A stretch of 37,011 bases of DNA from a virus, in IMG/VR virus record IMGVR_UViG_3300020187_000087, positions 1-37,011 of that record. One strand, written 5' to 3'. Both the position numbers and the translations under genes were made by a program. Of this stretch, positions 1 to 37,011 are shown in pieces. Every line of letters begins with the position of its first letter. Positions within the stretch are counted from its first letter, which is position 1. The notes under the pieces are model-generated. The model was not told where the DNA came from. It did no database searches and worked only from the letters and a program-made list of their open reading frames with translations.

Positions 1-358
1 GACGCACACACTAAACTATTTGTTTACGGCTACGTCAGTCACGCGGCCAACTGCTTGGTATGTTGCGTTGTTTACCAGCAATCCAGATGAGGATGCGTCA
101 GGCACGGAAGTATCCGGCGGCGCATACGCTCGGCAGTCTGTTTCGTTTACTGTGTCTGGCAACACTGCGTCAAACTCGGCTGCGATTGAGTTTCCGACTG
201 CGACTGCCTCATACGGCACGGTCACGCACATCGGCGTTTTTGATGCGTCATCTGGCGGTAATTTGATTGCGTATGCTGCGCTGACAACCAGCAAGGCAAT
301 TGACACGGGCGACGTGATGCGGATTCCATCATCTGACCTTGACGTGACTATGGACTAA
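1..358 (+). CDS. Tail-associated structural protein, 5'-truncated
   Basis: The open frame runs in from the left edge without a stop, and the first visible residues (THTLNYLFTATSVTRPTAWY) match the second part of the usual N-terminus of a small phage protein family of the form M..ENxLLxxLF..T.......YVALFT. The true start therefore lies about ten codons outside the window; the TTG at 20 is not the start. The rest (ALFTSNP, SGGAYARQSV, THIGVFDA, SGDLDV-like end) has the all-beta pattern of this family, which sits among tail-tip and fibre genes in many marine phages. Exact role unknown. It lies 4 bases upstream of the repeat protein at 363 and is probably co-expressed with it. Confidence 0.75.
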   Translation, partial: THTLNYLFTATSVTRPTAWYVALFTSNPDEDASGTEVSGGAYARQSVSFTVSGNTASNSAAIEFPTATASYGTVTHIGVFDASSGGNLIAYAALTTSKAIDTGDVMRIPSSDLDVTMD

Positions 359-362
359 GCCA

Positions 363-1088
363 ATGGCTGACACCACATACAGGACTGGCTTTGGCACTGG
401 TGCATTCGGTGTCAGGGCTTACGGCGTTGATGGTGTTTTAAAAGACGGTGAAGCCATTGTTATTGGCGTCACCTCGACTGCGGCAGCGAATGTTCGCGTT
501 AGGCTTTCTGGGTCTATCATTGCATCCAGCTCCAGCAACACGTCAGACGCCACGAGAGTGCGCGAAGTCAGCGCGTCTGCCTCAGTGTCAGCGAGCAGCA
601 CTTCCGCAGCCCAGCGTGTCCGTGAGAGCGCCTCAGCTGTATCTGCAAATGCAACTGGCTCTACAACTGTTGAGCGCGTGCGTGAGCAAAGTGCAGCATC
701 AAGCATTGCTGCAAGCAACACGGCAGCCTGCGAGAGAGTGCGTGAGCAAAGCGCGGCAACAGCGTCTAGTGCGTCAGTGAGCGCAAACGCCGCTAAAATT
801 GTTAGCATTGCCCCGATTATATCTGCCGTTGCCACAAATGTTGTAACGGTTAATCGCGTTCAGTTTAGCGGTGCTTCGATTAATGCTGCCAGTAGTATTA
901 CTTGCAATGCTATTGAAAAGTGGGAGCCTTTGCCCGGCACGTCTGAAGTGTGGACGGAGGTTGATCCTGCGTCTGAAATATGGCAAGGTGCATCTAACGC
1001 AACCGAAAGCTGGTCTGCGGTTTCCCCTGACAATTCAGAATGGACACCAGCCCCGGCTACAGGTGAAACATGGGCAGACGCCGCATAA
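363..1088 (+). CDS. Two-part repeat protein, probable fibre or tail appendage
   Basis: 241 residues; no family recognised. Residues 1-40 are a Gly-rich head (TGFGTGAFGVRAYGVDGV). Residues 45-168 are a 20-residue repeat: RVR/RVRE at 45, 65, 85, 105 and 125, a degenerate KIV at 145 and RVQF at 165, with Ala/Ser-rich spacers. Residues 187-237 switch to an exact 10-residue repeat with Trp at 187, 197, 207, 217, 227 and 237, mostly preceded by S/T-E-x or S-E. Such regular beta-prone or coiled repeats suit an elongated trimeric appendage. Position between a tail-associated gene and tail fibre 1 supports a virion role. Single cysteines at 123 and 181. Function inferred only. Confidence 0.75.
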   Translation: MADTTYRTGFGTGAFGVRAYGVDGVLKDGEAIVIGVTSTAAANVRVRLSGSIIASSSSNTSDATRVREVSASASVSASSTSAAQRVRESASAVSANATGSTTVERVREQSAASSIAASNTAACERVREQSAATASSASVSANAAKIVSIAPIISAVATNVVTVNRVQFSGASINAASSITCNAIEKWEPLPGTSEVWTEVDPASEIWQGASNATESWSAVSPDNSEWTPAPATGETWADAA

Positions 1089-1097
1089 GGAGAGCAA

Positions 1098-1598
1098 ATG
1101 CTTACGCAAAGCAGGTTAAAAGAATTACTGGTTTACCATGCTGATACTGGCGTGTTTACTTGGCGTTTTGGCAGACCTAAAGCGAAAACTGGCTCCGTGG
1201 CGGGTTCTGTAACTTGGAAGGGTTACTGGTTAATTGGCGTTGATGGCCGCCGCTACAGGGCGCATCATTTAGCGTGGCTTTACGAGCATGGTTATTTGCC
1301 ATCACATCAAATAGACCACATTAATCACAACAAGCTGGACAACCGCATTGAAAATTTGCGCGAAGTTACAAACTGCCAAAACCATAAAAACATGGGAATA
1401 CCCTCAAATAACAAGACTGGGTATCGCGGTGTTAGTTTCGCTAAGGACAGAAAAAAATATACCGCTCGCATAAAAGACGGCAAGTCTTACAGAAACTTGG
1501 GCTATTTTGAGTGCGCAGCAGCGGCGGCTATTGCTTATGCAAAAGCAAAAATTAAACTTGGGTATCACCCAAATCACGGTTTGAAACAGGAGGCATAA
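1098..1598 (+). CDS. HNH homing endonuclease with AP2 DNA-binding domain
   Basis: 166 residues. Residues 55-95 carry an HNH core (AHHLAWLYEHG, then QIDHINHNKLDNRIENLREV with His74 and Asn82/86), typical of the HNH_3 group. Residues 102-155 look like an AP2-type DNA-binding domain (NNKTGYRGVSF, YTARI, LGYFECAAAAAIAYAKAK). This pairing is common in free-standing phage homing endonucleases, which cut an allele lacking the gene and spread by repair. AAGGAG precedes the ATG at 1098, and the TAA abuts the ATG of fibre 1. It interrupts a run of structural genes, as expected of a mobile insertion. No intron boundaries were identified. Confidence 0.9.
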   Translation: MLTQSRLKELLVYHADTGVFTWRFGRPKAKTGSVAGSVTWKGYWLIGVDGRRYRAHHLAWLYEHGYLPSHQIDHINHNKLDNRIENLREVTNCQNHKNMGIPSNNKTGYRGVSFAKDRKKYTARIKDGKSYRNLGYFECAAAAAIAYAKAKIKLGYHPNHGLKQEA

Positions 1599-4229
1599 AT
1601 GGCCGATACGACAACAACTACATATGGTCTAACAAAACCTGAAGTCGGAGCCTCAGAAGATTCTTGGGGATTGAAGTTAAACGACAATCTCGATGACATT
1701 GATAACCTGCTAGACGGCACAACGCCCATTACTGGCATTGATATTAATTCCGGCACAATCGACGGCGCAGTGATTGGCGGTGCAACGCCTGCTGCGATTA
1801 CTGGTACGGCTATCACAGGCACATCGTTTGCCACGTCTGGCGATATGACCTTCGGCGACAACGACAAGGCCATCTTTGGTGCTGGCAGTGATTTGCAGAT
1901 TTATCACGATGGGTTTAGTAGTTACGTTGAAGATAACGGCACAGGTGTCCTTCGCTTAAAAAGTGAAAACGGTGATGGAGTTGGACTGTATGGCGCATCA
2001 AATGCAGTAATGCTTTTTGCTAGAACCGGCGCGGAAGTAGACTTGCGGTATAACGGCTCAACCAAACTCGCCACCACCGCCACAGGTATTGACGTAACTG
2101 GAGAAATTACGGCTGATGGGCTGACTGTGGATGATGCAGATGGCGCAACAATTCGTATTCAGTCAAGTGATACATCCGTTGACGGCGGCTCTTTAGGGCA
2201 GCTTGAGTTTTATTCAAATGATACTTCAACAGGCGGCACAGGCGTAAAAGGCAAAATTCAAGTAACCGATGTAAGTTCATATGGGACTGCATACGAAATG
2301 AATTTCTTTACAGGTTATGTGACAGGTGGCGCACACGCTGAAACAAAGAAAATGTCCATTGGTGCTTACGGCGACATCAGCTTCTACGAGGACACAGGCA
2401 CGACACCAAAGTTCTTCTGGGATGCGAGTGCGGAGGCTTTGACTATTGGGGATGCTGCAACTCAAGCGCCACTTAGTGTCGAGACAAACTCAAGTGGATT
2501 TGCGATTAGCATTGAGGAAAACGCAGGTGCAGAAACGTGGCAGATTGGCGTTGATGTTGACGGCGATTTGAATTTCCATAATAGTACTCTACCTACGCCC
2601 CAGTTTACTGTAAGCGATTCAGGAAACGTAGGCATTGGGACGACTTCGCCTAGTGCTGGTGCTGTTGGTGGCACTGTTGTTCACGTTCAAAATAGTGGTG
2701 GAACCGCTTCTGTTCGTGTTGACCGCAGCGATGCGTCTACGGCTGGCACATTGTCTATGACATCTGGCAATACGACGAATGGTTTTTACGGTACTGGCGC
2801 AAAGCCGATGGTGTTTTCTACAAACGCCACAGAAGCCATGACCATCGACGCATCGGGCAACGTAGGCATTGGGATAACAAATCCTGCTCAACTTTTACAC
2901 GTTCAAGCAGGTGTCACAGGCAACGGCACAATCAGAGTGGGCGGTGGTGCAGGTTTAGAAATAAGCCATGACAACTCAGGAAGTACCGTACAAAGGATAG
3001 ACAGTTTATATCGTACAACATCTAATGATACTAATTTACAGTTACGAACAGGAACACTTACTTTTCATACAGGCACAGCATCTTCAGAACGTATGCGCAT
3101 TGACTCCTCGGGACGGGTAGGCATTGGGGTGAGTTCGCCTACAGAGAAGCTGGAAGTCATACAAGGTTCAGGTACGACAACTAGGGCCGTTATTGGTGGA
3201 GGCACTCAAGCGGTTCTTGTGATAAACGGAGACAGGGACAATTCTGGTGATGGCGGTGAAGAAGACGCTACTATATTGCTTGCTACTGATGGCTCGTATG
3301 ATAGCTCTGTCAATAGTGGCCTTGGCTCTTACGGGTTTCGCATTGGGGCCATCAACAACGGCGGCTCAACCGGCCTAAAGTTTACTGAAGCTCAAAACGG
3401 TTCCGACTTAGAACGTATGCGCATCGACTCATCGGGCAACCTGCTTGTGGGGACTACTGACGTTGCTCCTTATGTCAGTTCCACTGAGACTGGCGCTGTT
3501 TTAAGAAATGCTTTTGGTCTAGTAGGGGCTTCTAGGGATGGTGGGGCTTCTGCTATATTCAACAGACTTAACTCAGACGGTGAAATTGTATCGCTCCGCA
3601 AAGACGGCACCACGGTGGGGAGTATTGGGGTTAATAATGGGACAAACCTTTACCAAGCCTCTAGTGCAGGTGCGGGTCTTAAAATGGGTTCAGTCAATAT
3701 TGTTGCATCAAACGCTTCTGGAGCATCAAATGACAATGCGATTGATTTAGGCTCGACATCTACACGCTTCAAAGACCTCTACCTCTCTGGCGGTGTCTAC
3801 CTTGGCGGCACTGTGTCGGCTAATAAGTTGGACGATTATGAAGAGGGGACGTTTACTCCCACGGCCTTTGGAACTACCGCCGCTGGGACCACGACCTATG
3901 GGTCACAAACTGGGTCTTACACCAAAGTTGGCGATACGGTTCATGTAGATATTTATATTGCTTGGACTGCAATGACTGGTACTGGCGATTTAAGAATAGG
4001 TGGTTTGCCATTCACGTCTTCTAGCGCATCTAATTATTATGCTACTGGCACTATCGTTCCCTTGCTAGGCTTTACTTGGCCTTCTGGAGCAACCCAGCTA
4101 AATCCAATTATCAGCGCTAGTGATACAGCAATGTCTATTTTTGGCTCGGCTACTGATTCAAACTCAGACGGAGCAGCAACGGATAATGAAATAGTCGCTC
4201 TTGCAATAACGATAACTTATAAGGTTTGA
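1599..4229 (+). CDS. Tail fibre protein 1
   Basis: 876 residues. The N-terminus (TYGLTKPEVGASEDSWG, KLNDNLDDIDNLL) is the short attachment segment seen in many marine phage fibres. The shaft holds FGDNDKAIFGAGSDLQIYHDG and several copies of a module like MRIDSSGNVGIGTTSP, a beta-helical shaft repeat. The last 130 residues (YEEGTFTPTAFG to ALAITITYKV) are nearly the same as the end of fibre 2 at 33383 (nine differences), and several shaft blocks are near-identical in DNA. No S74 chaperone domain is seen; the shared C-terminal domain is probably the trimerisation or receptor-binding head. Likely role: host recognition. The stop of the HNH gene directly abuts its ATG. Confidence 0.9.
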   Translation: MADTTTTTYGLTKPEVGASEDSWGLKLNDNLDDIDNLLDGTTPITGIDINSGTIDGAVIGGATPAAITGTAITGTSFATSGDMTFGDNDKAIFGAGSDLQIYHDGFSSYVEDNGTGVLRLKSENGDGVGLYGASNAVMLFARTGAEVDLRYNGSTKLATTATGIDVTGEITADGLTVDDADGATIRIQSSDTSVDGGSLGQLEFYSNDTSTGGTGVKGKIQVTDVSSYGTAYEMNFFTGYVTGGAHAETKKMSIGAYGDISFYEDTGTTPKFFWDASAEALTIGDAATQAPLSVETNSSGFAISIEENAGAETWQIGVDVDGDLNFHNSTLPTPQFTVSDSGNVGIGTTSPSAGAVGGTVVHVQNSGGTASVRVDRSDASTAGTLSMTSGNTTNGFYGTGAKPMVFSTNATEAMTIDASGNVGIGITNPAQLLHVQAGVTGNGTIRVGGGAGLEISHDNSGSTVQRIDSLYRTTSNDTNLQLRTGTLTFHTGTASSERMRIDSSGRVGIGVSSPTEKLEVIQGSGTTTRAVIGGGTQAVLVINGDRDNSGDGGEEDATILLATDGSYDSSVNSGLGSYGFRIGAINNGGSTGLKFTEAQNGSDLERMRIDSSGNLLVGTTDVAPYVSSTETGAVLRNAFGLVGASRDGGASAIFNRLNSDGEIVSLRKDGTTVGSIGVNNGTNLYQASSAGAGLKMGSVNIVASNASGASNDNAIDLGSTSTRFKDLYLSGGVYLGGTVSANKLDDYEEGTFTPTAFGTTAAGTTTYGSQTGSYTKVGDTVHVDIYIAWTAMTGTGDLRIGGLPFTSSSASNYYATGTIVPLLGFTWPSGATQLNPIISASDTAMSIFGSATDSNSDGAATDNEIVALAITITYKV

Positions 4230-4237
4230 TTATAGCC
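4143..4237 (+). repeat. 95-bp exact repeat of the window's right end
   Basis: These 95 bases are identical to 36917-37011. They cover the last codons of fibre 1, its stop, and 8 bases beyond. They form the 3' end of a longer gap-free similarity (3837-4237 against 36611-37011). Confidence 0.95.
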
Positions 4238-4288: not shown

Positions 4289-4540
4289 ATGGCATTAACA
4301 GAAGAAACAGTCGAAGACAAAATTGAAATTGTCGGTGACTTCAAGCACGTTCAGGTGAGAACCGCAGTCGTCATCAAGCGTGACGGCGCAGAAATCAGCC
4401 GATCATTCTCACGCCATGTCGTTGCACCGGATGCAGATATCACAGGCGAAAGCGCAGAGGTTCAAGCCATCTGCGCAGCCGTCCACACACAAGCGGTTAA
4501 GGATGCTTACGCCGCCCATCTAGCCGCACAGGAGGTTTAA
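4289..4540 (+). CDS. Small conserved phage protein (83 aa)
   Basis: Starts MALTEETVEDKIEIVGDFKH and has the pattern of a small protein found after fibre genes in many marine and lambdoid phages: a short beta region with a charged VQVRTAVVIKRDG strand, an ISRSFSRHVVAPDADI segment, then an Ala-rich helix ending AYAAHLAAQEV. Function unknown. AAAGGAG lies 9-10 bases before the ATG. The 59 bases after fibre 1 hold no gene. It is followed after 3 bases by the next gene, so the two are likely translated together. Confidence 0.75.
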   Translation: MALTEETVEDKIEIVGDFKHVQVRTAVVIKRDGAEISRSFSRHVVAPDADITGESAEVQAICAAVHTQAVKDAYAAHLAAQEV

Positions 4541-4543
4541 CCT

Positions 4544-4852
4544 ATGGCAATTATTTACACTTGGACTATCCCCACCTGCGAACACGACATCGCAACAGGT
4601 GGGATTAACGTAGTACACTGGCGCTGCACAGGCGTAGACGGAGATCACTCTGCGTCATCCTATGGCACAGTGGGCTTAACACCTGACCCATCTGCCGCTG
4701 ACTTTGTTGCCTATGCAGACGTGACTGAAGCACAGGCTCAAACATGGGTCTGGGCCAGCGTATCACAGGAAGATACGGAAGCTGCTATCGCTGCAAAGAT
4801 TGATGCGATGGTAAACCCAACCGAAGCCTCGGGAACACCTTGGGCTGCTTAA
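4544..4852 (+). CDS. Small conserved phage protein (102 aa)
   Basis: Begins MAIIYTWTIPTCEHD and continues with NVVHWRCTGVDG and a Trp-rich WVWASVSQEDTEAAIAAKI helix. This resembles a widespread small phage protein in marine podoviruses and myoviruses (YTW...VHWRxxGxDG pattern). It probably folds as a small beta-sandwich with a C-terminal helix. Function unknown; it travels with the genes at 4289 and 4875. AGGAGGT precedes the ATG within the end of the previous gene. Confidence 0.75.
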   Translation: MAIIYTWTIPTCEHDIATGGINVVHWRCTGVDGDHSASSYGTVGLTPDPSAADFVAYADVTEAQAQTWVWASVSQEDTEAAIAAKIDAMVNPTEASGTPWAA

Positions 4853-4874
4853 CTTAACTTAAAAGGAGATCACT

Positions 4875-5090
4875 ATGACTGAAGACAAAAAGGTCATTAC
4901 GATTGACGACATCGAGTACACTGAAGATCAACTGTCAGATGAGGCAAAGGTCTGCATTAATCACATTGGCTCACTGGATCAGAAGATTGGTTCAGCACAG
5001 TTTAACCTGACGCAGCTTCAAGGTGGCCGTGAGTTCTTTATAGCGCGGCTGAATGCAGCGCTTAAACAACCGGAAGAAGAAGATGGATAA
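4875..5090 (+). CDS. Small conserved phage protein (71 aa)
   Basis: The sequence VITIDDIEYTEDQLSDEAK followed by INHIGSLDQKIGSAQFNLTQ matches a small acidic phage protein common in marine phages and cyanophages: a short beta hairpin (ITIDDIEYTEDQL) then a long amphipathic helix likely to form a coiled coil. Function not established. AAAAGGAG lies upstream of the ATG. Its last eight bases overlap the start of the following gene. Confidence 0.8.
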   Translation: MTEDKKVITIDDIEYTEDQLSDEAKVCINHIGSLDQKIGSAQFNLTQLQGGREFFIARLNAALKQPEEEDG

Positions 5091-5277
5091 AAGAACAGCA
5101 GCATCAGCACATGAACGGATCGACAACATGGAGAAGCAAGTAATTGCAATTCAAACTGAGATGAAGATCCAATTCAAAGATTTGTTTGGTCGCGTCAAAC
5201 GAATGGAAAGCATTATGCTTGCTGCTACTGGGTCTATCATTGCGCTCTTAATCACAGTCCTAACAAAGATGGGCTGA
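5083..5277 (+). CDS. XhlA-like membrane protein, probable holin accessory
   Basis: 64 residues from the ATG at 5083. That start gives an 8-base overlap with the upstream gene; an in-frame ATG at 5053 would overlap it more and add an unusual KKK stretch. Residues 1-38 are a charged coiled-coil helix (HERIDNMEKQVIAIQTEMK). Residues 42-61 are one TM segment (IMLAATGSIIALLITVLTKM). This coil-plus-C-terminal-TM layout is that of haemolysin XhlA family proteins, which accompany holins. It opens the lysis module. Confidence 0.7.
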   Translation: MDKRTAASAHERIDNMEKQVIAIQTEMKIQFKDLFGRVKRMESIMLAATGSIIALLITVLTKMG

Positions 5278-5450
5278 TGATCTGTGTTCTCGCCTTTGTT
5301 TCATTCAACCACGCTTGGACACAAGGCGGGAACCGGTTGTTTCAATACTGTTTCTATAACTGCGGCACTGCAAAAAATGGTTTATGGTATGATAGGGTTT
5401 ATCGTGTCAGCTATTTGTTTGTCTGTCCAGCAAAGTTTGTTGAAACATGA
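5277..5450 (+). CDS. Small Cys-containing, probably exported protein
   Basis: 57 residues: it begins MICVLAFVSFNHAWTQ, continues GGNRLFQYCFYNCGTAKNG and ends FVCPAKFVET. It starts at an ATG overlapping the TGA of the previous gene (TGATG) and ends in an ATGA overlap with the next, so coupled translation on both sides argues that it is real. The first 16 residues resemble a short signal peptide, and Cys24, Cys29 and Cys51 could form disulfides outside the membrane. It occupies what would otherwise be a 170-base gap in the lysis module. A spanin-like or envelope role is possible, but there is no lipobox and no family was recognised. Confidence 0.65.
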   Translation: MICVLAFVSFNHAWTQGGNRLFQYCFYNCGTAKNGLWYDRVYRVSYLFVCPAKFVET

Positions 5451-5923
5451 TTGATCCGTTTACAGCTTTTGCCGCAGCGCAGACTGCCGTATCTGCTATC
5501 AAGAAAGGTATCCAGCTCGGCAAAGACATTGGCGGCATATCCAATGATCTGGCTAAATTTGCTGGTGCTATTTCTGACTTAGAGTTTGCACACAAGTCAG
5601 CGGAGAACCAGCCTTGGTATGCAGTGCTGTTCGGCAGTGCTGGCCCCAGTGCAATAGACATCTTCGCCAAGAAGAAACAGGCGGAGGCTCTTCGTGCAGA
5701 CATTAAGCAATATATTCAGTTCGGCTACGGCCAGTCGGCTTGGCAAGAACTCTTACGCATCGAAGCTCAAGTGCGCAAAGATCGTCAGAAAACTTTATAT
5801 CGCAAGGCGGAGATTAAGCAGGCGATTATCGAGTGGACTTTGGGCATTCTGGTGGTGGTATCAGGCATTGGTATCCTCTGCGTGGGCATTTATTATCTCG
5901 GCAAAAAACAAGGAAAATGGTAA
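5447..5923 (+). CDS. Lysis-module membrane-anchored protein (158 aa)
   Basis: Begins MIDPFTAFAAAQTAVSAIKK. It has helical Ala/Lys-rich regions, a long charged helix (residues 84-126) and a single C-terminal TM segment (IIEWTLGILVVVSGIGILCVGIY) with a Lys-rich tail KKQGKW. Proteins of this shape recur beside holins in marine podoviruses; no catalytic motif is visible. ATGA overlap with the small gene before it and a one-base overlap with the next. The long soluble helix with one membrane anchor could suggest a spanin-like part, but the anchor is at the wrong end for a classic inner spanin. Confidence 0.7.
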   Translation: MIDPFTAFAAAQTAVSAIKKGIQLGKDIGGISNDLAKFAGAISDLEFAHKSAENQPWYAVLFGSAGPSAIDIFAKKKQAEALRADIKQYIQFGYGQSAWQELLRIEAQVRKDRQKTLYRKAEIKQAIIEWTLGILVVVSGIGILCVGIYYLGKKQGKW

Positions 5924-6174
5924 TGGCACACACAATACTTGATGACTGGAAAGTTCTGCCACGCTTGATGATGCTGGCGGTCACTGTGCTGACGTATCAG
6001 GCGGTGCATTGGTTCATGGGGCTATCTGACCCCAGCGTTGCACAGTCAGGGCTTGTAAGCGTCTGTATGGGCGCTCTCACAGGGTGCTTTGGTATCTGGA
6101 TGGGCAAAGAGTCCAAGACTACAGTTACAAACACAGCTTCATCGTCGAAGGTAGAGTATGAGGTGGACAAATGA
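5923..6174 (+). CDS. Two-TM holin-like protein
   Basis: 83 residues from the ATG at 5923, which overlaps the preceding TAA by one base; an upstream in-frame ATG would run deep inside the previous gene. Two hydrophobic segments: LPRLMMLAVTVLTYQAVHWF and SGLVSVCMGALTGCFGIWMG, joined by a short polar loop, then a charged Ser/Thr-rich tail ending EYEVDK. The N-terminal LDDWKVLPRLMML pattern is typical of small holin-like proteins of marine phages. It lies directly upstream of the three-TM holin. Confidence 0.65.
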   Translation: MAHTILDDWKVLPRLMMLAVTVLTYQAVHWFMGLSDPSVAQSGLVSVCMGALTGCFGIWMGKESKTTVTNTASSSKVEYEVDK

Positions 6175-33382: not shown

Positions 33383-36300
33383 ATGAGTGATATCGCAATT
33401 AATCCAGTAACCCGCCGGGTTCAGTTCACAGGCAATACCGGAACCGGTCCATATGCCTTTACCTTCAACATCTTGGTCGATGGTGATATCGCAGTCTTCA
33501 AGGGGACTACGGAGCTAACGCTTACCACTGATTACACGGTCAGTATTAACGCAAATGGAACGGGGTCTATCACTCTAACTGCTGCCCTCATAGCATCTGA
33601 CGTTCTTACAATCATTGGTGGTCGTGAGCTTTCTCGGACCACAGACTTTGTTACAGCCGGGGATCTTCTGGCTTCTAGCTTGAACGAACAGCTAGACAGT
33701 AACGTGATTATGACCCAACAGCTTGATGAAAAGCTTGGGCGTGGTTTGTTTGTAAACCCTGGTGATGTGTTTACTGACTTAGAGCTTCCACTCAAGGATG
33801 ATCGTAAGGGTACGGTGCTTGGATTCAATGAGACCACGGGCGACCCAGAGCCAGGTCCAACACTTTCGGATGTCGATTCACTAGCAACTATTTCTGCTGA
33901 TATTAAGACTTTGGCAGAGATCCAAGATGGCACGGTTGCCACTGATGCCATTACAAACGTAAATACGATCCGTACAGATGTAACCACAGTTTCCGGCATA
34001 TCTTCCAATGTAACTACGGTTGCAGGCAATACATCAAACATTAATACGGTTGCAGGAAACAATGCCAACATTACAACTGTTGCTGGCATAGATAGCGATG
34101 TAACTACTGTTTCGGGTATATCTTCCGATGTGACCACCGTTGCTGCTGACGGTACAGACATTGGAGTTGTTGCAGGTATATCTTCTGATGTGACTACTGT
34201 TTCCGGCGTATCGACAGAGATTGGCCGCTTGGGTACAGCCGATGCTGTATCTGATATGAACGTACTAAGCGCTCCGGCAGTTATTGCTGACATGGATTCT
34301 CTTGCTGACAATGTTAGTGCGATTTCTATTGTATCAGATGATATTGGTAATGTTATTGCTGTTGCTGTAAACGCAGCCAACATCAATACGGTTGCCGCTG
34401 ATGGCGCCGACATTGGCACGGTGGCTGGTGATATATCTAACGTCAATACGGTTGCGACTAATATTACGTCAGTAAACACAAACGCCACAAACATTACTGA
34501 TATCCAGAATGCTTCTGCAAATGCTGCTACTGCAACAACGCAAGCCGGAATTGCAACAACACAGGCTGGCATAGCAACGACTAAAGCTAGTGAGGCGTCT
34601 GCCTCTGAGGTTGCGGCTGAAGCTGCTAAGGTTGCGGCTGAGGCTGCGCTTGATGAGTTTACAGACATCTATCTCGGGGCTAAGGCTTCAGATCCCACAA
34701 CAGATAATGATGGGAATGCCCTGACTGCTGGGGACCAGTATTTTAATACAACCCTTAATGTGCTGAAGATCTACAACGGTTCTGCTTGGCAGTCTGCTGC
34801 TATTGATAGCTCCGGTTTTGTTGAAACCACTGGCGACACCATGACTGGTAATCTGTCCTTCGGCGACAACGACAAGGCCATCTTTGGTGCTGGCAGTGAT
34901 TTGCAAATTTATCACGATGGTAGCAATAGCCGTATTCAAGACACAGCCACGGGTTCATTGATACTTTCTGGTACAAACTTTTACGTCAACAATACTGGAG
35001 ACAGTAAAAGTTATATTGCTGGTCTTGACGGCGGTACAACGCCTTATGTTCGCTTGTACTACGATGGATCAACTCGTTTAGACACCACCTCCACAGGTAT
35101 TGACGTAACTGGCACAGTGACGGCTGATGGGCTGACTGTGGATTTAACTTCTGGGTATGCAAGAATACAAGATTTGAACTCCGAAGTTGTGTCTGGCACA
35201 AATATGGGTGGCATTGAGTGGAGAACTGCAGACTCAAGTGTTAGCGGGGCAAACCGCATTACAGCAAGGATTAGGGCGGAGGGAGATGGCACCTTTAACG
35301 CCACAGACAAAGCTCCCACAAAGTTAATTTTCTCAACTCATACAACGTCGGGTGCTGATCCTGTAGATCGCATGGTTATTGCTTCTAACGGCGACATCAG
35401 CTTCTACGATTCACAGGGCAGCAGCCAATCGTTCTTCTGGGATGCGAGTGCGGAGAGCTTGGGTATTGGGACCAGTTCGCCTGATGATGCTTTGCATGTT
35501 TATAACACTTCCAGTTTAAATCATGTTCGCATTGACGGGCCTGCTGGTATTAACCGAAACTTAAACTTTAGTACGTCAGGTACAACCCGATGGAATATTT
35601 ATGCAAACTCTACGGCAGAAAGCGGCTCTGATTCTGGCTCCAACTTAACTATTGCAAAATACACTGATGCTGGAGTTTATAATGGCGTTGCAATGTTTAT
35701 TGAACGTAGCAGCGGATCGGTAGGCATTGGGACGAGTTCGCCTGCGGACCCACTGCATGTTTACACTAGCGACGCTGGTGTGGCACGGTTGGAAAGCACC
35801 TCCGCAAACTCATACCTTCGCTTTATTACATCTGCCGACACTAATGGCTATGTGGGATATGAGAGCAACGACATGGTAATCTACGCTAATAACAGCAAGG
35901 TTGCCACATTTGACTCATCGGGCAACGTGGGGATTGGGGTTACGCCCAGTGCTTGGGACACCCTGCCTGCTATTCAGGTAAGCACTTACGGTGGGTTGTC
36001 TGCTGGTGGTGGCTACACAAGGCTGTCCTCAAATGCTTATTTAAGTACCTACCCAAACACTTGGTCACGTATTGCTACAAATACTGCAAGTTTGTATGAG
36101 CAAGGTGGAGGTCAGCATGTTTGGTCTACTGCTGCATCTGGTAGTGCTGGCACAGCAATTAGCTTTAGTGAAGCCATGCGCATCGACTCATCGGGCAACC
36201 TGCTTGTGGGGACTACGGACTCTGCGCCGGGGGCTGGAGATACCAATACTGGAGTTAGCTTTAGGGCTGGAGGTGACGGCTTTTTCTCAAAAGACTCAAG

Positions 36301-37003
36301 CTATGGCGCTCGTTTCAACAGAAATACAAATGACGGAGACGTAGTAACTTTTGCAAAAAACGGCACCACGGTGGGGAGTATTGGGACTTATTCAAACGAT
36401 GTGTATATAGGTAATGATGATGTAGGGTTGCTGTTTAACAACGCATCCAACTATATGTCACCGCACAACGTAAATACAAACTTACCTACAGATGGAGCGA
36501 TGGACATAGGCGCAGGGTCACGCCGCTTCAAAGACCTCTACCTCTCTGGCGGTGTCGTCTTTGGCGATGCTGGCGGCTCAGGTACGTCCACAAGCAACAC
36601 GCTGGATTCGTATGAGGAGGGGACTTTTACTCCTACGGCCTTTGGAACTACCGCCGCTGGGACCACTACCTATGCAGCCCAAACTGGGTCTTACACCAAA
36701 GTTGGCGATACGGTTCATGTAGACATTTATATTTCTTGGAGTGCTATGACTGGTACTGGCGATTTAAGAATAGGTGGTTTGCCATTCACGTCTTCTAGCG
36801 CATCTAATTATTTTGCTACTGGCACTATTGTTCCTTTGCTAGGCTTTACTTGGCCTTCTGGAAAAACCCAGCTAAATCCAATTATGAGCGCTAGTGACAC
36901 AGCTATGAATATTTACGGCTCGGCTACTGATTCAAACTCAGACGGAGCAGCAACGGATAATGAAATAGTCGCTCTTGCAATAACGATAACTTATAAGGTT
37001 TGA
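33383..37003 (+). CDS. Tail fibre protein 2, T7 gp17-type N-terminus
   Basis: 1206 residues. Residues 1-150 (INPVTRRVQFTGNTGTGPYA, then GRELSRTTDFVTAGDLLASS, LNEQLDSNVIMTQQLDEKLG) are the T7 gp17 N-terminal domain that binds the tail. Residues 200-280 are perfect decad repeats of VTTVSGISSD type, continuing loosely to about 375, then an Ala-rich coiled coil (residues 376-424). The shaft has the FGDNDKAIFGAGSDLQIYHDG block and SSGNVGIG modules shared with fibre 1, and the last 130 residues match fibre 1 with nine differences. Likely the main host-binding fibre. GGAACGGG lies upstream of the ATG. Confidence 0.93.
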   Translation: MSDIAINPVTRRVQFTGNTGTGPYAFTFNILVDGDIAVFKGTTELTLTTDYTVSINANGTGSITLTAALIASDVLTIIGGRELSRTTDFVTAGDLLASSLNEQLDSNVIMTQQLDEKLGRGLFVNPGDVFTDLELPLKDDRKGTVLGFNETTGDPEPGPTLSDVDSLATISADIKTLAEIQDGTVATDAITNVNTIRTDVTTVSGISSNVTTVAGNTSNINTVAGNNANITTVAGIDSDVTTVSGISSDVTTVAADGTDIGVVAGISSDVTTVSGVSTEIGRLGTADAVSDMNVLSAPAVIADMDSLADNVSAISIVSDDIGNVIAVAVNAANINTVAADGADIGTVAGDISNVNTVATNITSVNTNATNITDIQNASANAATATTQAGIATTQAGIATTKASEASASEVAAEAAKVAAEAALDEFTDIYLGAKASDPTTDNDGNALTAGDQYFNTTLNVLKIYNGSAWQSAAIDSSGFVETTGDTMTGNLSFGDNDKAIFGAGSDLQIYHDGSNSRIQDTATGSLILSGTNFYVNNTGDSKSYIAGLDGGTTPYVRLYYDGSTRLDTTSTGIDVTGTVTADGLTVDLTSGYARIQDLNSEVVSGTNMGGIEWRTADSSVSGANRITARIRAEGDGTFNATDKAPTKLIFSTHTTSGADPVDRMVIASNGDISFYDSQGSSQSFFWDASAESLGIGTSSPDDALHVYNTSSLNHVRIDGPAGINRNLNFSTSGTTRWNIYANSTAESGSDSGSNLTIAKYTDAGVYNGVAMFIERSSGSVGIGTSSPADPLHVYTSDAGVARLESTSANSYLRFITSADTNGYVGYESNDMVIYANNSKVATFDSSGNVGIGVTPSAWDTLPAIQVSTYGGLSAGGGYTRLSSNAYLSTYPNTWSRIATNTASLYEQGGGQHVWSTAASGSAGTAISFSEAMRIDSSGNLLVGTTDSAPGAGDTNTGVSFRAGGDGFFSKDSSYGARFNRNTNDGDVVTFAKNGTTVGSIGTYSNDVYIGNDDVGLLFNNASNYMSPHNVNTNLPTDGAMDIGAGSRRFKDLYLSGGVVFGDAGGSGTSTSNTLDSYEEGTFTPTAFGTTAAGTTTYAAQTGSYTKVGDTVHVDIYISWSAMTGTGDLRIGGLPFTSSSASNYFATGTIVPLLGFTWPSGKTQLNPIMSASDTAMNIYGSATDSNSDGAATDNEIVALAITITYKV
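33980..34222 (+). repeat. 30-bp (decad) coding repeats in fibre 2
   Basis: Eight consecutive 10-residue units of consensus (V/I)TTV(S/A)GxxS(D/N), encoded by about 30-bp repeats, residues 200-280 of the fibre. Likely a trimeric beta or coiled shaft segment whose copy number sets its length. Confidence 0.85.
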
Positions 37004-37011
37004 TTATAGCC
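36917..37011 (+). repeat. 95-bp exact repeat at right edge
   Basis: Identical to 4143-4237; the window stops inside this repeat, 8 bases after the fibre 2 stop codon. A wider gap-free similarity covers 36611-37011. Confidence 0.95.

Follow-up and report, generated by a model that had tools for sequence, protein, structure and literature searches.

In fiber I of Ralstonia phage GP4, an elongated rope reportedly connects five dimers of gp80. In the neck of Shigella phage Sf14, gp31 dimers complete the whiskers, two of which are threaded by a single gp30 chain (PMC11821841). In cyanophage A-1(L), five bead-chain fibres (gp82-gp81-gp80) sit on a pentadecameric neck ring (PMC10966104). We analysed a 37,011-nucleotide stretch of viral DNA (IMG/VR record IMGVR_UViG_3300020187_000087; the window) that encodes a 241-residue protein built of short repeats. 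This protein is probably the thread, or rope, in a virion fibre that, like GP4 fiber I, is built as beads on a string. Its gene lies directly 3′ of a gp80-type bead gene, and the two genes are paired almost without exception across about 180 loci. The features discussed below are:

2..358, + strand: gp80-type bead gene (PF23140), first codons lost at the window start (Pfam 8.1e-40; phmmer against 8jou_a 1.4e-8)
363..1088, + strand: candidate rope or thread protein, 241 amino acids (open reading frame, family alignment)
363..434, + strand, residues 1-24: Tyr/Gly-rich N-terminus, a putative anchor (invariant Y6, R7, G11, G16, G21 and G24)
435..914, + strand, residues 25-184: eight 20-residue units, each an RVR(E) corner plus a Ser/Ala strand, proposed to bind beads (lag-20 test, phase consensus)
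915..1085, + strand, residues 185-241: 10-residue Trp units with six Trp, proposed end segment (lag-10 test)

The repeat protein and its family

The initial annotation had described the protein as exact 20-residue and then exact 10-residue repeats. The register is indeed exact, but the sequence is not: the units are degenerate, a tandem repeat in the DNA was rejected because none is present, and the conserved feature is the register. RVR(L/E) occurs at residues 45, 65, 85, 105 and 125 and RVQF at 165, with KIV at 145 in place of an RVR-type motif. The only Trp residues are at 187, 197, 207, 217, 227 and 237. The BLOSUM62 autocorrelation exceeded all 10,000 shuffles both at lag 20 for residues 25-184 and at lag 10 for residues 185-241, which confirms the two periods, and their register is kept in relatives. 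Since lag 10 is at chance level inside the 20-residue section, the change of period is a true one, and the halving that had been noted initially is real. A 138-amino acid antisense open reading frame (419-835, − strand) overlies the rope gene and probably arises incidentally from the repeated Ser/Ala codons of that gene.

Scanning IMG/VR gave 105 relatives, of which 80 were kept (32-94% identity). The repeat protein is real, as many independent contigs carry it. In nearly all relatives the strongest period is lag 20 or 40 and the Trp spacing is 10; the exception in Trp spacing is a 224-residue group with spacings of 10, 12 and 11. Save for this group, lengths vary by whole 20- and 10-residue units, and a relative has between about 7 and 13 of the 20-residue units and from 2 to 6 Trp. 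The 20-residue units share the consensus R-V-R-(E/L)-x-(A/S)-A, the phase that holds Trp in the Trp units is invariant, and the invariant alignment columns are Y6, R7, G11, G16, G21, G24, W187 and W197. Pairwise dN/dS of the window gene against six relatives is 0.22-0.27. The 20-residue register is under strong constraint.

The repeat protein has no match in Pfam, including PF23140, which its upstream neighbour does match, and nothing significant was found in NCBIfam, PHROG or PDB sequences. The initial annotation was therefore right to place it outside named families. Triple beta-spiral fibre shafts of the adenovirus type keep a Gly or Pro at each repeat's turn. The 20-residue unit does not fit such a shaft, as neither residue is conserved at any phase (per-phase maximum 24% for Gly and 13% for Pro).

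The gp80 partner and the cassette

The upstream gene belongs to PF23140, 'Podophage GP4 fiber I protein gp80', and the PDB entry that it matches, 8jou, is titled 'Fiber I and fiber-tail-adaptor of phage GP4'. A complete copy, in the related locus L015, encodes 126 amino acids. The bead and repeat genes are separated by 4 bases in the window; among the loci, a 1-base overlap or a gap of 3-4 bases is common. A gp80 gene was found upstream of the repeat protein in 177 of the 179 related loci with enough upstream sequence, comprising 75 of 75 in the window's own family (70 adjacent, five with an insertion), 77 of 77 in a second family (76 within 150 nt), 15 of 17 in a third (nine within 150 nt) and 10 of 10 Bcep22-like loci. 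From the other side, the repeat protein was present at all 64 gp80 loci whose downstream sequence exceeds 700 nt. Because one contig can be retrieved with both queries, the search sets overlap in part and the counts are not entirely independent. A different gene adjoins gp80 in Venkman and Mvi-JY20, and in Octadecabacter DB2 the family profile matches a gene farther along rather than the direct neighbour. Octadecabacter DB2 gp11 (L157:7065-8591), which matches the rope profile at 1.4e-9, is annotated 'ribonuclease E', a label that looks wrong.

On the upstream side, gp80 comes after an SU10-type adaptor gene in two relatives (L007 and L015). The counterpart gene before gp80 in BcepMigl matches 'gp81 of phage GP4', which points to gp79 as the gene that follows gp80; we propose that the GP4 rope is encoded by this presumed gp79 gene. 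In a genome-collection scan for GP4-like prophages, a single locus, from Caballeronia, showed this gene order. An HNH endonuclease gene (1098-1598) lies downstream of the rope gene in the window, and an HNH-like gene lies between gp80 and rope in relatives that include L017, L023 and L042. Given this shifting position, the cassette looks as if it were a homing target.

Proteins with a 20-residue period were also found in 15 named phages, at or near the gp80-neighbour site, with a lag-20 z of at least 2.7: CRP-4, MEP402, phiM5, OH, Itty13, BcepMigl, BcepIL02, DC1, POI1126, Atu_ph08, C72C1, three Manatee Spring genomes (in two of which other genes intervene at the site) and Mycobacterium phage CELFI. 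Among control open reading frames, 2 of 147 reached this z, and one of the two is PBC5's own gp80 neighbour. Many of the 15 proteins are without detectable sequence similarity, and comparing profiles with the Bcep22-like counterparts gave no homology to the window family (hhalign probability 0.2%). Their C-terminal tails are of several types: Trp with period 10, Arg/Val with a period of about 9, and a 13-residue type. CELFI gp23 (L175:5340-7640), a Gly-rich minor tail protein adjoining a gp80-type gene, ends in a 20-residue-period section and a 9-residue-period tail and is perhaps a siphophage version of the repeat protein.

The initial annotation had also tied the protein to 'fibre 1' (33383-37003), and this link is contradicted by the genome context. 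The closest relatives match window positions 1-1087 or 1-1914 at 92-96%, some of them also 4370-5053, and positions 14.4-37 kb are a T7-like backbone. In long records with this backbone, gp80 is absent in 11 of 11, and gp80 or the repeat protein was found within about 10 kb in 0 of 80 backbone loci. The last 95 bases of the window (36917-37011) are identical to 4143-4237 and belong to a 401-base 3′ end that the two fibre genes share (3837-4237 and 36611-37011, 94% identity), which is likely a point of recombination or misassembly. In one backbone record (G002) a fibre gene runs straight into 4556-5925. The contig resembles a lariat or mosaic (1-4237 and 36917-37011), and its first ~4.2 kb look joined from another phage at the 95-base repeat. 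From the gp80-less backbone, the repeat and the arrangement in G002, we conclude that the cassette was probably joined to the contig, either when the assembly was joined at the 3′ end of the fibre gene or in a rare mosaic event. Rfam gave no RNA in the window.

A proposed thread through gp80 beads and its alternatives

The constant pairing of the repeat protein with the GP4 fiber I bead suggests that it is threaded through such beads. The regular fibrous protein of two segments that was first suggested survives as a candidate virion-fibre component with two periods; the idea that it forms a stalk and tip by itself was not supported, and no evidence for glycan binding was found. In such a thread, a beta strand from each 20-residue unit would dock on one gp80 subunit, and the RVR(E) corners would be the connectors. 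A bead dimer would then take two units, and the window protein with its eight units would hold about eight gp80 subunits. The invariant Tyr/Gly N-terminus may anchor one end of the thread, and the 10-residue Trp units could be a second binding or capping segment at the other. For comparison with the eight units here, a count by eye gave about eleven in the Bcep22-like protein L286, and 8jou holds ten gp80 chains. A possible but doubtful extension is that very diverged phages share the 20-residue unit as a common code for binding beads; with one unit per gp80 subunit, the unit count would set bead number and fibre length, and a tail of the 10- or 9-residue type would be an exchangeable end module.

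Structure prediction used a natural in-frame gp80-stop-rope read-through from a related locus (L060) as AlphaFold2 input. The bead part was modelled confidently, with a pLDDT of 67-88 by ten-residue block, and superposed on 8jou_a with a Z of 14.5. The rope part had a pLDDT of about 20-46 and showed, at this low confidence, roughly one strand per 20-residue unit; no confident rope fold or bead docking was obtained with AlphaFold2. The window protein by itself gave scattered strands at a pLDDT of 38.8, a low confidence that alone proves nothing. The low values fit a thread that would order upon binding, without proving this. A disordered monomer that is absent from virions was the outcome initially named as counting against a fibre; the monomer is indeed without a confident fold, which is half of that refutation, but a bead-ordered thread would look alike.

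One alternative is a self-standing trimeric fibre, with a stalk of 20-residue units and a Trp-rich tip, which stands beside gp80 by chance. The regular sequence with its two periods, the strand array in the low-confidence AlphaFold2 model and the fibre genes in the neighbourhood are in keeping with such a fibre. It leaves the near-constant gp80 pairing unexplained, however, its stalk would lack a conserved Gly or Pro turn, and a Trp part reduced to two Trp in some relatives would be odd for a receptor-binding tip. We consider this fibre unlikely.

The protein could instead be an assembly factor or chaperone of gp80, a spacer that organises bead dimers and is absent from the finished virion. 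The tight coupling of the two genes suits this role, and so does virion detection in relatives. Proteomics of JC1 virions listed the gp80 homologue gp53, whereas its neighbour gp54, a homologue of the repeat protein, was not reported (PMC9144972). Similarly, the phiM5 record marks gp17, the gp80 homologue, as detected but not its neighbour gp18. On the other hand, gp56, the homologue in BcepIL02, is named virion-associated in its record, and a protein of low copy number per virion could evade detection. Few copies per virion would explain the missing rope homologues as well as an assembly-factor role would. On balance an assembly factor seems rather improbable. We give very little weight to a linker between gp80 and the capsid edge or the fibre-tail adaptor, with units that bind other partners and no bead threading: the conserved Tyr/Gly N-terminus, the distinct kind of tail and an adaptor gene close by in relatives are compatible with it, but a long array of equal units suits many equal partners better than one dock.

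The repeat protein offers a candidate, at the level of sequence, for the GP4-type rope, to which no PDB sequence could be matched. As a thread through gp80 beads, it would account for the recurrent 'hypothetical protein' that adjoins gp80 in phages from marine, rhizobial, Burkholderia and Pseudomonas hosts, and it would make fibre length readable from, and alterable through, a repeat count.

Comparison with described bead fibres

The neck fibre of A-1(L) resembles the proposed fibre in being a chain of beads, but its beads are modelled as trimers linking head to tail and no rope protein is described (PMC10966104). A neck fibre of the A-1(L) type was rejected as a model because A-1(L) has no described rope protein. 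PHROG 19041, a virion structural protein of Bcep22-like phages, is likewise encoded 3′ of gp80 and has a 20-residue period, but it has no detectable sequence homology with the window protein.

GP4 fiber I (PDB 8jou, 8jov; PF23140) shares its bead family with the upstream gene of the window, and the rope candidates of its Bcep22-like relatives have the equal gene position. These Bcep22-like proteins are the nearest to GP4 among those at the site and are without detectable homology to the window family. They differ in ending in tails without a Trp repeat. PDB sequence and profile searches for a deposited rope sequence gave no real match to the Bcep22-like rope candidates.

Shigella phage Sf14 (gp30/gp31, 9c39) and the Bas63 connector (9mt4) combine a gp80-fold bead dimer with a second protein. 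The bead model superposes on neck chain 9c39_K with a Z of 9.7 and on 9mt4 with a Z of 9.4. Chain 9c39_K, with 108 residues, corresponds in size to gp31 (110) rather than to gp30 (166, chain I). In Sf14, however, gp30 with its 166 residues has no visible repeat array, its gene comes before that of gp31, and there is one bead dimer per whisker. The threading of dimers of the gp80-fold gp31 by gp30 is a solved precedent for the bead thread that we propose.
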